DNA from: a virus | DNA length: 36,434 bases | Direction: 5' to 3' (one strand) | IMG/VR virus record: IMGVR_UViG_3300033571_008359 | Location: 1-36,434 of that record | Part shown: positions 4,386-36,434 of the stretch, in pieces | How the letters are laid out: each line of letters starts with the position of its first letter | How positions within the stretch are numbered: the stretch's first letter is position 1 | Translations under genes and position numbers: made by a program | Notes under the pieces: generated by a model | Told to the model about the DNA's origin: nothing | What the model saw: only the letters and a program-made list of their open reading frames with translations | Databases searched by the model: none

Positions 4386-4525
4386 GCGTCGTCGCTCCCC
4401 GGCTCGCGGCTGTAGGCGTCGCACGGGATCACGGCCGGCTCGTCGCACAGCCGGCACCAGCGGACGACGACGTAGACGGGCGGATGAACGCGCGCCTCGC
4501 AGTGGGTGCAGGTGGCGCAGCTCAT
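4382..4525 (-). CDS. 47-residue zinc-ribbon-like protein
   Basis: It starts MSCATCTHCEARVHPPVYVV and continues RWCRLCDEPAVIPC. Two CxxC pairs, CTHC and CRLC, are spaced like a zinc ribbon. ATG 4525 overlaps the helicase stop and the TGA overlaps the next start. It could be an accessory to the helicase or resolvase, but there is no direct evidence. Confidence 0.6.
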   Translation of the reverse strand: MSCATCTHCEARVHPPVYVVVRWCRLCDEPAVIPCDAYSREPGSDDA

Positions 4526-5433
4526 CGCACGTACCCCTGCGGAGCCGCCCGGGCGGACCCGAGGAACTGCTGCGACTCGGGATCGAACCACAGCGCGATC
4601 CGCCCCTCCCATTCGCCGTTGCGCTGCTTGTCGCAGACCAGCATGGCGTCGGGCTTCTCGTCGTCCTCCATGCCGCCCGCCTGGATCTCGAACTGCTTGC
4701 GCTTGTTCCGCCAAACGATCATCACGTTGTCGGCCTGATCGCTGATCGAGCCGCTGCCCTTCATGTCGAACTTGCCCGGCAGGCTGTTTTCGTCGTCGGC
4801 CTTGCGGATGTGGTGCACCAGGTGCAGGTGCATGCCGGTGTCCCGCGCGATGCTCGTCAGGGTGTCGAGGAGGTTCTTCTGCCCGTTGTAGTCGTCCTCG
4901 CCGCGGACGCACTTCATCAACGAATCGACCACGATGTGCTGCATGTGCAGCCGCTCGTGGCAGTAGCGCAGCACTGCGAGCAGGCGCAGCGGATCGACCG
5001 TGCCCTGCTGGTCGTACAGCCACAGCCGGCCATCCGACCAGTCGTGGAACTCGTCGACGAATTGCTCCGTCGGCCGGCTCCCGCGCGACGCTTGGCGGCA
5101 CATGCGCTCGAGCGTCGCCTCGGGCTTCATCTCGAAACTGGCGACCATGCACCGCTGGCCCTGCGCCATCAGCCCGAGAATCACCTGCCCGGTCAGCAGC
5201 GACTTGCCGTGCCCGTTGATGCCCGCCCACACGGTCAGCTCGCCGGGGCGCAGCGCGATGATCTCGTGCGTCTTGGCCCACGGCAGCAGCGCGCCATCGG
5301 GCTGGCCCTTGCGGGCGAACCTCGCAGCGACTGCCTCGCGCCACGCCGACGCAGGCCGCACCTTCACCTGGGGCTCGGAGTCGCGCATGTAGCGCGCCCA
5401 GTCGATCTCGTCCCGCTCGATCACGCCTGCCAT
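4522..5433 (-). CDS. DnaB/T7 gp4-type replicative helicase (RecA-like ATPase)
   Basis: This ATP-driven helicase is expected to unwind DNA at the phage fork. The 303-residue protein from ATG 5433 has Walker A GINGHGKS at 71-78, the SFEMK glutamate at about 101, a Walker B strand HIVVD ending at D170, and a later HLVHHIRK motif, in the order seen in superfamily-4 helicases and in the helicase half of primase-helicases. It lacks a primase/toprim domain. ATG 5433 is favoured by a strong GGGGAGG ribosome site; GTG 5424 would give a GTGA overlap with the preceding gene. It is paired with the initiator gene upstream, like lambda O with P, although P is a loader. Confidence 0.85.
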   Translation of the reverse strand: MAGVIERDEIDWARYMRDSEPQVKVRPASAWREAVAARFARKGQPDGALLPWAKTHEIIALRPGELTVWAGINGHGKSLLTGQVILGLMAQGQRCMVASFEMKPEATLERMCRQASRGSRPTEQFVDEFHDWSDGRLWLYDQQGTVDPLRLLAVLRYCHERLHMQHIVVDSLMKCVRGEDDYNGQKNLLDTLTSIARDTGMHLHLVHHIRKADDENSLPGKFDMKGSGSISDQADNVMIVWRNKRKQFEIQAGGMEDDEKPDAMLVCDKQRNGEWEGRIALWFDPESQQFLGSARAAPQGYVR

Positions 5434-5753
5434 GACACCACCTCCCCGGTTGCGTCGATGCCGTACACGGCGCGCGGCTCGATGTCGTGAATCGCCTCCC
5501 ACCACCGCCAGAACAGCAGCGGATCGCCCTCGCGCAGCTCCAGGTGCACGCGCAGGCCACGCAGGAACCGCAGGTCCGCCAACTCCGGCTTCTCGCCCTG
5601 CGTCCACACCGTCGGCAGCTCGTCGCGCTCAATCTGCTGCTCGGGCGTCTGCCAGGGCCACGTGACGCTCGGCGCGGTCCCGATCTCAAGGAACACCGCA
5701 GCCGGCCTCCAGCCCGCCGCGCGAGCCGCTTCAATCTGCCGATGCCCGATCAC
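5421..5753 (-). CDS. Unknown 110-residue protein between initiator and helicase
   Basis: It starts at GTG 5753, overlapping the initiator stop as GTGA. The sequence begins VIGHRQIEAARAAGWRPAAV and includes FLRGLRVHLELREGDPLLFW followed by RWWEAIHDIEPRAVYG. It has aromatic and acidic residues and no obvious motif, signal peptide or membrane segment. Its place in the replication block suggests an accessory replication role, which is inference only. Confidence 0.6.
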   Translation of the reverse strand: MIGHRQIEAARAAGWRPAAVFLEIGTAPSVTWPWQTPEQQIERDELPTVWTQGEKPELADLRFLRGLRVHLELREGDPLLFWRWWEAIHDIEPRAVYGIDATGEVVSWQA

Positions 5754-6472
5754 ACCGCCCCCGCCATCAACGAGTCCACGGTCTTGGCGCGAGGCGCCCG
5801 GTTCTGCTCCTTCGACAGCCACTTCACGACAAACGCCTGCACGCCACGCGGCGTTTTGCGGTTCGTTGGATTCGCGATGCACCAGGCCCGCATCTCGCGC
5901 AGTTGCTGCACGACCTTGACCGCTGGGTAGGCCGTCGACCACTCGGCAACGTGCGCTTCGGTCACGTCGAAGTCGGTGCCGTCGACAAGCGGGATCTGCA
6001 CAACCGGAGTCGGAGGGGGGTCTGCCTCGGGCGGAGCATTGGGGGCCGGCGTCGGGTCGCAAAGCGGCTCGGCGCTATCTCCTTCCCTTCCCTTCCTTCC
6101 CTTCCCTTCCCCTTGATCGCGTGAAGCACGCGTGCCTGACGCGTGGGCCACGCGTGCCGGAAGTGACGATTGAGACTCCCGATTGTTGATGACCTGGTGT
6201 TTCTTGAACGTCACGATCTCTGCGTACTGCTTGCCGCCGACTTCGTAGAGCACCACCATGCCGAGGTCTGTCAGTTCCTTGCCCAGCGATACGACGTCAC
6301 AGTCGTCTCCTGGCAAGTACCGCATCTTCAGCGTGCGTGGCTTCCACTCAAGTCGGCCCTCGCGGTCCGCTTCACACCAAAGCGACACGTAGAAGAGCCG
6401 TGCAAGGGGCGTCAGGGACACAATGTCCTCGGACGTAAAGAACTCGGGCTTGATCGTGCGAATGCGCGACAT
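5750..6472 (-). CDS. Replication initiator / replisome organiser (lambda O-like arrangement)
   Basis: The 240-residue protein has an N-terminal winged-helix-type region starting MSRIRTIKPEFFTSEDIVSL (about 1-95), typical of phage replisome organisers. A low-complexity basic/Pro linker (about 110-165, GEGKGRKGREGDS then PPEADPPPTP) follows, then a C-terminal helical domain with VVQQLREMRAWCIANPTNRK, like DnaT/DnaD-type helicase-loading domains. The linker DNA contains phased iterons and a polypyrimidine tract, the same logic as oriLambda inside gene O. The stop overlaps the next gene. It should bind the origin and recruit the helicase encoded two genes on. Confidence 0.78.
   Translation of the reverse strand: MSRIRTIKPEFFTSEDIVSLTPLARLFYVSLWCEADREGRLEWKPRTLKMRYLPGDDCDVVSLGKELTDLGMVVLYEVGGKQYAEIVTFKKHQVINNRESQSSLPARVAHASGTRASRDQGEGKGRKGREGDSAEPLCDPTPAPNAPPEADPPPTPVVQIPLVDGTDFDVTEAHVAEWSTAYPAVKVVQQLREMRAWCIANPTNRKTPRGVQAFVVKWLSKEQNRAPRAKTVDSLMAGAV
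6078..6160. other. Candidate replication origin inside the initiator gene
   Basis: Four copies of (A/T)CGCGTG start at 6117, 6128, 6139 and 6150, exactly 11 bp apart, so on one face of the helix. They directly adjoin a 37-base pure pyrimidine tract (6078-6114, CCTTC-type repeats). The block encodes the flexible linker of the initiator protein, as the iterons of lambda do in gene O. The sequence beyond 6160 (to about 6215) is more AT rich than its surroundings. Binding by the initiator is inferred. Confidence 0.55.
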
Positions 6473-12459: not shown

Positions 12460-12756
12460 ATGAGCAACAAAATCACGATCAACGGTATCGAATACGTCCC
12501 CGCACTGCCTGCGCCGACCGGCACTCGCGCTGTCGTGGTCGTGGATCGCGGCTGGATTTTTGCGGGCGATGTTACGCGCGAGAACGGGCGCATCCGCATC
12601 AGCCGCGCGCTTCATGTGTTCCGGTGGGAGTCCATCGGGTTCGCAAAAATGGTCGAGACGGCCGAGGCCGATTTGCGCCCCGTCGCCGATGTCGATATGC
12701 CCGAAGGCGCAGAGATTTTCTGCGTGCCGGTGGCTGACGATTGGGGCCTGAAATGA
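12460..12756 (+). CDS. Unknown 98-residue protein upstream of the repeat gene
   Basis: ATG 12460 is set by a perfect AGGAGG at 12446-12451; an in-frame ATG at 12424 also exists. The product starts MSNKITINGIEYVPALPAPT and is strand-rich (GTRAVVVVDRGWIFAGDVTR). It ends overlapping the repeat gene (ATGA). No family was recognised. Its base composition is less GC rich than that of its neighbours. Confidence 0.65.
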   Translation: MSNKITINGIEYVPALPAPTGTRAVVVVDRGWIFAGDVTRENGRIRISRALHVFRWESIGFAKMVETAEADLRPVADVDMPEGAEIFCVPVADDWGLK

Positions 12757-13070
12757 CTGAGACGATGCGTCCAGTCGGGTACGGGTACGGGAACGGGAAC
12801 GGGTACGGGTACGGGTACGGGTACGGGAACGGGTACGGGGACGGGTACGGGGACGGGTACGGGTACGGGGACGGGGACGGGTACGGGTACGGGTACGGGT
12901 ACGGGTACGGGGACGGGTACGGGTACGGGTACGGGAACGGGGACGGGTACGGGTACGGGGACGGGTACGGGTACGGGGACGGGTACGGGGACGGGTACGG
13001 GGACGGGTACGGGTACGGGGACGGGGACGGAACCGTGACCCTGGCCCGCGCCGGACGGAGGCGCGCGTGA
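12753..13070 (+). CDS. Gly-Tyr/Asp/Asn dipeptide-repeat protein
   Basis: The 105-residue protein has a short head (MTETMRPV), 42 uninterrupted G-X dipeptides with X = Tyr (26), Asp (12) or Asn (4), and a basic tail ([12 protein letters not shown]). The start ATG 12753 overlaps the previous stop and the stop is followed by the next ATG, so it sits in frame within a tightly coupled operon. Such a sequence would be disordered or adhesive, and Gly-Tyr repeats are known to favour phase separation or binding to nucleic acids in other proteins; no function is established here. It has no predicted membrane part. Confidence 0.65.
12777..13028 (+). repeat. 42-copy hexanucleotide tandem repeat GGG(T/A/G)AC
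   Basis: The tract is exactly 252 bases, that is 42 units. Every unit is GGGTAC, GGGGAC or GGGAAC: only the fourth base varies (T 26, G 12, A 4, C 0). All 84 codons are GGG or NAC, so there is no synonymous variation at all. All six frames are open through the tract. Confidence 0.97.
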
Positions 13071-35155: not shown

Positions 35156-36434
35156 TGCATGGATTCCTGCCCGTCGAACCCGGACGGTGCGGGGACGCTC
35201 TGCGCCATGTCGCCGGCTGCATCAGGGCCGACGGGCGATAGATCGGTGGCCGCGGCGGTGAGCACCGGCGGCGGCTGAATGTTTTTCGCGAGCAGCTGCA
35301 CCCATCCGGCGATCTCGGCCACGTCGCGGCGCGAGTCGGCAGCGATGCGGGCGGTCTCGATCGACGCCTCGGCGCGAATGCGGTCCTTCTCGGCGCCGCT
35401 CTGCGCTTCAGCAAGCGCGGCTTCGAGCTGCTGGATGTGGGCCTGCATCTGCTGCACGGCCTGCTGCACTTCGGGCGGGATCTGCGGGCCTTGCTGCTCG
35501 CCCTCTTCGTCGCCGCGCAGCTCGGGCGGGATCGAGCGCTTGATGCGCTCGGCGATGTCGTCGGCACCGGGCCAGTCCATCGCCATCACGACCTTGTCGC
35601 CCGCGATGTCCATGAGCTTCGGCCAGCTCTGCCCGAACTGGATCATCGCGTCGGCGGCTTCCTGGCGCTTCGTGGAGAACGACGGCCCCATCGACACGAC
35701 CACGTCGTAGCGGCCCACGCGCAGGTCGCGCATCACGCGCTCGATGCCGTTCTCGTCGACCTCGGGCGTGTTGACCGTCGCGTGGCCGGGCGTCTCGTCC
35801 TCGCCGAGAATGCGCACCAGCCGCGGCGTGTCGTACACGCGCGGCAGCATGCTCACGATGCAGCGCCCGCAGTGGCGGATCGCCCGGCGCAGGTTGTCTG
35901 TGATGTGGTAATTGGCGGTGTCGCCCTCACGCTGGCGCGCCTGGATCGCCTTGCCGCTGGTCTCGTTGCCGCGCGCACCGAGCGACGCGTCGAAGATGCC
36001 CGTCGTCGCCTTGATGTTGTCGTTCGCGTGCATCGCGAGCTGCAGCGCGCCGGCCGGGATGTCGGCCATCGGCTGGCGCTGCGGCGCGGGGACGAGGATG
36101 CCGTCGACCGTCGTCGGCCGGTACGTCAGGTACGGGAAGTTGCGGACGTTCGCCTGCTTCCAGTCCTTCTCGTATCCCTTGGCTTGGCCCTCGGCGATGA
36201 TGAACGGGGTCTTCGTGCGCAGCGCGACTTCCTCGGTCGCCGACGACATGAACAGGTCGTACATGTACGCCGGGTCTCGCGCGTGGCGCACGACGCCGCT
36301 GTACGTCACCTCGCCGTCGTCGTCGATCTCGCCGCCCACGACCTTGAAGATCGGGATCCACTCGCACGGAACCTCGGTGCGTTCGAGGATCTCGACGGCG
36401 CTCGCCTTGAACCACTCGACGACCTGGCGGTACG
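35152..36434 (-). CDS. P22 gp1-like portal protein, C-terminal part
   Basis: This continues the portal from base 1 of the window after circularisation; the last 87 bases here duplicate codons at the window start. It includes YRPTTVDGILVPAPQRQPMA and AMHANDNIKATTGIFDASLG, both strongly P22-portal-like, then the helical C-terminal region (QAVQQMQAHIQQLEAALAEA, IRAEASIETARIAADSRRDV) equivalent to the portal crown/barrel. The TGA at 35152-35154 overlaps the scaffold start. Confidence 0.93.
   Translation of the reverse strand, partial: YRQVVEWFKASAVEILERTEVPCEWIPIFKVVGGEIDDDGEVTYSGVVRHARDPAYMYDLFMSSATEEVALRTKTPFIIAEGQAKGYEKDWKQANVRNFPYLTYRPTTVDGILVPAPQRQPMADIPAGALQLAMHANDNIKATTGIFDASLGARGNETSGKAIQARQREGDTANYHITDNLRRAIRHCGRCIVSMLPRVYDTPRLVRILGEDETPGHATVNTPEVDENGIERVMRDLRVGRYDVVVSMGPSFSTKRQEAADAMIQFGQSWPKLMDIAGDKVVMAMDWPGADDIAERIKRSIPPELRGDEEGEQQGPQIPPEVQQAVQQMQAHIQQLEAALAEAQSGAEKDRIRAEASIETARIAADSRRDVAEIAGWVQLLAKNIQPPPVLTAAATDLSPVGPDAAGDMAQSVPAPSGFDGQESMQ
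36348..36434. repeat. Terminal direct repeat, right copy
   Basis: Identical to bases 1-87 over the full 87 bases. It is evidence that the contig closes on itself. Confidence 0.95.

Follow-up and report, generated by a model that had tools for sequence, protein, structure and literature searches.

The window, by which we mean the whole stretch of 36,434 nucleotides of the IMG/VR virus record IMGVR_UViG_3300033571_008359, carries on its minus strand a replication initiator gene for a protein of 240 aa (5750..6472) and, downstream of it, the gene of a DnaB-type helicase with a RecA core (4522..5433, minus strand). The helicase was recognised with Pfam DnaB_C (E=1.5e-14) and with the DnaB-like helicase families PHROG 19/243. 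Its likely start codon is the ATG at 5433, and the open frame reaches 5607. DnaB-, DnaC- or P-like genes were found next to the initiator in the window and in its relatives. The window reads as a temperate phage genome and contains genes for portal, terminase, head, tail, integrase, RecT and exonuclease VIII. A direct repeat of 87 bp at positions 1-87 and 36348-36434 is common to both ends, which gives a circle of 36,347 bp; the DNA is therefore a complete circle or a circularly permuted genome.

The 240-aa protein was compared with the PHROG replication initiation families and matched over residues 1-148 with a best E=5.3e-39. According to this profile match of the N-terminal domain, it is a member of the replication initiation proteins PHROG 16167/12556/1408/2149, whose annotation is silent on a nested origin. 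AlphaFold2 modelled the N-terminal domain (aa 1-107) as a winged helix with a pLDDT of 93. In the full-length model, the protein is folded at about 1-107 and 155-228, while aa 110-151 fall below a pLDDT of 50. A disordered linker (about aa 110-151) and a small C-terminal domain (about aa 155-228) are thus predicted. No Pfam family, RepA_N included, matched the initiator at E 0.1, a sequence search of the PDB returned no relative and there was no profile similarity to lambda O. With Foldseek, the predicted N-terminal domain was most similar to the RepA_N initiators 4pt7 and 4pql (E=2.9e-3), but the scores are weak and the fold Z of 7.5 is tied with unrelated winged helices. Given the missing Pfam match and the weak fold scores, the assignment to the RepA_N replicons as a class was rejected. 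In an alignment of 80 IMG/VR relatives (L001-L080), the N-terminal domain was conserved with 70% mean identity and the C-terminal parts were often unrelated.

Four repeats and a long purine run lie in the middle of the initiator gene, as the first-pass annotation had described. A motif scan located, in gene order, iteron 1 (ACGCGTG, 6150..6156, with a palindromic core), iteron 2 (ACGCGTG, 6139..6145), iteron 3 (ACGCGTG, 6128..6134) and iteron 4 (TCGCGTG, 6117..6123), so that the (A/T)CGCGTG units start on the plus strand at 6150, 6139, 6128 and 6117 with an exact spacing of 11 bp. Iteron 4 adjoins a pyrimidine run of 37 nt at 6078-6114, which, read on the coding (minus) strand, is a polypurine tract with G2-4 and A2 runs. 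On this strand, the iterons are followed by the purine tract AAGGGGAAGGGAAGGGAAGGAAGGGAAGGGAAGGAGA. The core of iteron 4 has one mismatch to the palindrome ACGCGT; as the other three of the four cores are perfect, the repeats read alike on both strands. Residues 106-119 correspond to the iterons and residues 120-132 to the tract, which places the element in the linker-coding part, as had been proposed, in a region that is predicted to be mostly disordered and in which there is little protein structure that would have to be preserved.

The array and the tract stand out against the remaining window. The next longest purine or pyrimidine run in the window has 11 nt, and the longest in any of 200 shuffles had 20 nt. 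A 6-mer occurring four times at one fixed spacing was found in none of 200 dinucleotide shuffles of the window, and in the window itself it is the sole case besides a 6-bp tandem repeat at 12776-13030. By itself, the motif is less frequent than expected by chance (18 WCGCGTG against 40 expected); its count was therefore discarded as uninformative, and the signal is the phased array. In nearest-neighbour calculations, the tract is less stable (-1.43 kcal/mol per step) than the mean of the gene (-1.57) and the iteron side (-1.74). A GC-skew plot, which had been suggested as a check on an origin at this place, did not bear it out: the extremes of the 36,347-bp circle are found at 32.5 and 16.1 kb and none at 6.1 kb, where the array lies, a reading that is confounded by the two gene blocks on opposite strands. 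As a separate observation, the tandem repeat at 12776-13030 (6-bp unit CGGGTA, about 42 copies) underlies an open frame of 109 aa (12741-13070) that consists almost wholly of Gly-Tyr/Asn/Asp dipeptides, lies in a stretch with strong positive GC skew and gave no PHROG match.

The conservation of the element was studied in 61 dereplicated relatives by permuting synonymous codons within each gene. ACGCGT occurred 210 times compared to 37.8 (sd 4.9) under synonymous shuffling. The spacing of 11 bp was counted 73 times as opposed to 1.0 in the shuffled genes, and a spacing of 10 bp was found 26 times. The sites occupy all three reading frames, and the spacing is thus conserved in spite of the codon freedom, in line with what had been anticipated for an origin. 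The longest purine run had a mean of 36 nt versus 17 nt in the shuffles. Codon choice is extreme inside the tract, where 88 of 93 Arg codons are AGG (110 of 1118 outside) and 232 of 235 Gly codons are GGA or GGG (274 of 707 outside). The tracts follow the grammar (G2-3 A2-3)n with G runs and A runs of 2-3 each. Compared to random purine-only recoding, an isolated G is strongly avoided (10 vs 140, sd 10), and so is an isolated A (16 vs 172, sd 10). The starts of GG are mostly 4, 5 or 6 nt apart. When stretches of the gene are ranked by nearest-neighbour stability, the tract falls into the bottom 6% (median of the relatives). Four G2 runs were present in 57 out of 57 tracts and four G3 runs in 19 out of 57; hence G3 stacking is not the conserved feature, and a canonical G3 quadruplex was dismissed as a conserved property. 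The tract is weak in a few relatives, e.g. L285 and L300.

A peptide of the form RVxxASxTRxxRV..EGKEGKEGKE recurs in these relatives, and it could be argued that the repeats together with KEGKEGKE are kept as a charged linker with a function as peptide. Selection at the protein level, however, explains neither the codon choice in the tract nor the iterons in all three frames, and the tract grammar is not expected from random purine-only synonyms. In addition, the linker is predicted to be disordered, and distant relatives have other peptides with the same DNA layout. This explanation is considered highly improbable. Since 11 equals 3x3+2, successive iterons rotate through the frames and generate RVxxASxTRxxRV, so that the recurring peptide is a by-product of the 11-bp period of the DNA. 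Iterons and tract are accordingly an element of the DNA and not a protein motif.

Two variations of the arrangement were seen among relatives. In L032 and L062, an HNH endonuclease domain has been inserted after the DNA-binding domain and ahead of the iteron/tract element, which persists behind the insertion. L081, L083, L088, L098, L128 and L146 contain a second ACGCGT array at a distance of 157-216 bp from the linker array, in the part coding for the DNA-binding domain; it is possibly an operator or a second half of the origin.

More distant members of the family keep the phase and change the sequence. Twenty named phages with an initiator of the family of the window were compared for iterons and tract. 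The iterons are ACGCGT in Vibrio phage 1.131.O, TCGCGAGAC in Bernal13 and PFR2, and of the GTGCAAG type in Louie and Bordetella phage IFTN3. Phages of Mycobacterium and Gordonia have a (GGGGAACA)n tract, those of Marinomonas and Streptomyces have GGGAACA, and Tyrion has GGGATCA. The tract of the phages of Pseudomonas, E. coli, Acinetobacter and Vibrio is CTGATTCC, which reads GGAATCAG on the opposite strand. In general, GGAA is replaced by repeats of GGGGAACA or GGAATCAGG in the more distant relatives, sometimes on the opposite strand. In Mx8, neither iterons nor tract are plain. Local self-similarity was also calculated for 80 relatives from bacterial genomes (prophages) of Pseudomonadota, Bacillota, Acidobacteriota and MAGs of other phyla, a list that is approximate as the MAG assignments may be contaminated. 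At lag 11 it reached 20.4 of 33 compared to 16.1 (sd 0.18), i.e. z=24, followed by lag 22 with z=16 and lag 21 with z=13.5, while lags 12, 13 and 17 had z<=2.4. Relatives that retain the protein linker and have lost the repeats would have spoken against an origin. The relatives without ACGCG arrays still show the 11-bp phase with z=19.

These tract forms also bear on how the duplex might be opened. It is conceivable that an origin at this site opens at the tract via an R-loop, in which transcription of the gene leaves purine RNA paired with the pyrimidine strand, or via a triplex (H-DNA). The tract of the window is homopurine. In the window and in most close relatives, the purine strand is not the template for transcription of the gene, which favours R-loops. 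Yet the strand of the tract is flipped in 17 out of 80 bacterial-genome relatives and in 25 out of 47 relatives without ACGCG arrays, and C and T occur in the GGGGAACA and GGAATCAGG types, which are not homopurine. Because of the flips and these forms, both structures are poor as a general explanation; furthermore, neither of them needs selection against single G and single A. We regard this mode of opening as unlikely.

IMG/VR was finally scanned blindly for exact DNA patterns without protein information, whereby close isolates were counted separately. Among the matches listed, three ACGCGT at 11 bp led to the initiator family of the window in 104 out of 119 loci, (GGGGAACA)x3 in 116 out of 120 and GGAATCAGGTTAAGGGAATCAGG in 86 out of 89; the other three GGAATCAGGTTAAGGGAATCAGG loci have truncated genes, the visible part of which resembles the same family. 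For (GGRAA)x4, this was the case for 61 of 105 newly fetched loci among the matches listed. The 15 of the 119 listed ACGCGT loci outside the family are partly not in initiator genes; PHROG 9474 initiators are among them, as are DUF1376 primosomal proteins. Two of these PHROG 9474 initiators with ACGCGT arrays, in L105 (near 8000) and L179 (near 1418), have a one-strand repeat of the AACATAACAGAACAAGAC type in place of the G tract. Three homologous ORFs at L112:764, L122:916 and L156:2205 with three ACGCGT at 11 bp are not recognisably initiators and share the peptide MRADACxTRVRRV.

Many of the remaining GGRAA loci belong to another initiator family, Lin1244_N (PF14297), as found for four out of five tested. 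The phase was analysed for 23 dereplicated loci of this remainder in which a long ORF has the tract on its coding strand. Over the 100 bp that precede the tract, lag 11 gave z=10.6 and lag 22 z=7.3, compared to z=-0.3 in a control of 12 remainder loci with the tract outside such an ORF. Lin1244_N initiators in L308, L343, L354, L358, L392 and others have GGAAA tracts after 11-bp repeats such as AAATGCAATGC and CAACGGTTCAA, and they were not detected by the N-domain profile of the family of the window. Lin1244_N can be regarded as an unrelated initiator family with the same layout of tract and 11-bp repeats. A tract as short-period, GGGAA-like repeat could in principle result from simple-sequence slippage or from shared descent alone. 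The same grammar and place, however, recur across phyla with unit lengths that differ between 4 and 8 bp, the tract occurs in unrelated protein families, and its codons run against the usage of the gene. Moreover, the GGGGAACA and GGAATCAGG forms are almost absent outside initiators among the blind-scan matches listed. Such an origin of the tract is therefore hardly credible.

The layout resembles mapped origins in several respects. As in the lambda origin, the iterons are located in the initiator gene between the DNA-binding and the partner-binding part, the tract adjoins them on the 3' side, a helicase or loader gene is next door, and the iterons have dyad symmetry (for lambda: PMC6022878). 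Lambda O occupies each iteron as a dimer, puts the neighbouring AT-rich region under strain and is followed by P and DnaB (PMC6022878, PMC7466680), and O remains functional in trans with two in-frame deletions in this AT-rich region (PMC6022878). The iterons of lambda are 18 bp long and spaced by 20, 24 and 23 bp (about two turns), whereas a core of 6 bp is repeated here at 11 bp, i.e. one turn; the first-pass annotation was right that the unit is shorter. It had also contrasted the adjoining tract with the AT-rich one of lambda. This holds as far as the (G2-3A2-3)n composition is concerned, although the tract belongs to the less stable parts of its gene, but the strand asymmetry is shared, since, according to its sequence record, the coding strand of the lambda tract is also rich in A and consists mostly of purines. 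The difference is thus the G content, and the tract of the window looks like a G-containing counterpart of the lambda tract. A classification as lambdoid origin was rejected in view of the different iteron size, spacing and tract and the lack of similarity to the O profile.

In pSK41, four Rep boxes are central in rep and are bound by the N-terminal winged-helix domain, the linker encoded by the origin is not needed as protein, and the C-terminal domains differ by host (PMC5703833). The initiators described here share with RepA_N (pSK41, pTZ2162) the conserved N-terminal domain, the origin-coded linker and the exchanged C-terminal domain. Unlike them, the RepA_N plasmids have A+T-rich Rep boxes, and no G/A tract is described for them. 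Direct phased repeats in the linker codons of an initiator that are conserved at the DNA level are a trait of the lambda and pSK41 kind, and by analogy the element would work like the lambdoid and RepA_N origins. For the mycobacteriophages Miko, Rachaly and Jeeves, repA and its flank are sufficient for replication and an origin inside repA is suspected (PMC7157519). Their RepA proteins are said to be related to plasmid RepA, with no repeats reported (PMC7157519), while actinophages of the family of the window possess (GGGGAACA)n and phased repeats; that work was hence not used as direct evidence. An element of such a layout was not described in the mostly open-access literature searched, so that an earlier description elsewhere is possible, and no experimental origin, binding or unwinding was found for the initiator family of the window in this literature.

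Taken together, the element is very probably a phage replication origin nested in the linker codons of its own initiator, in which iterons spaced by one turn are combined with a G/A repeat as the unwinding element. The sequence tests nearly all fit the lambda-like origin inside an initiator that had been put forward, namely the linker, the conservation of the DNA, the phase, the neighbouring helicase or loader and the scans. The analysis establishes the anatomy, the selection on the DNA of both parts, the constant phase of one turn, the grammar of the tract, its reduced duplex stability and its nearly exclusive occurrence with initiator genes. The activity as origin, the binding partners, the opening of the duplex at the tract and the way in which the G-rich strand is used are inferred. 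The N-terminal winged-helix domains would occupy one face of the helix by binding to the four 11-bp iterons, and the phased complex would strain and open the adjoining G/A tract. The C-terminal domain would then recruit the DnaB-type helicase of the phage for loading at the open tract, and relatives may recruit a DnaC/P-like loader in its place. Recognition of the opened G-strand as well as a two-layer quadruplex would fit all tract forms.

Phage initiators can be autoregulated, and the iterons could alternatively be an operator at which the initiator binds its own gene to restrict expression of either itself or the helicase, with the tract as an accessory. Iterons in an early gene could serve as a roadblock, and the second array in the DNA-binding-domain part of some relatives would agree with such a role, which may also coexist with an origin. 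An operator, though, needs no adjoining G/A tract of 30-50 nt with a fixed grammar that is present in unrelated initiator families as well, and the layout agrees with the mapped origins of lambda and pSK41. As the explanation of the element, the operator is considered improbable, and the nested origin is preferred.

The two-part layout appears to be common to hundreds of phages, some of them with unrelated initiators. More tentatively, and with rather more doubt than confidence, it might represent a general two-part origin code in the linker codons of several unrelated initiator families across phyla, in which phased iterons of free sequence are combined with a one-strand G2-4/A-rich repeat and the G-rich strand is the signal. 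This strand could be held single-stranded or as a G-quadruplex, or be read by the initiator or loader, and the helicase would thereby enter on a defined strand without an AT-rich region. The question is raised how a G-rich repeat instead of AT-rich DNA would open an origin. In the linker, two codes would share one stretch, with the 11-bp period of the DNA dictating the peptide. Few temperate phages have mapped origins, and for hundreds of phages and prophages the rule would locate the origin to within some tens of bases on the basis of the sequence only. The predicted loci include many genes that are annotated as hypothetical, and initiator genes are flagged by the DNA signature.
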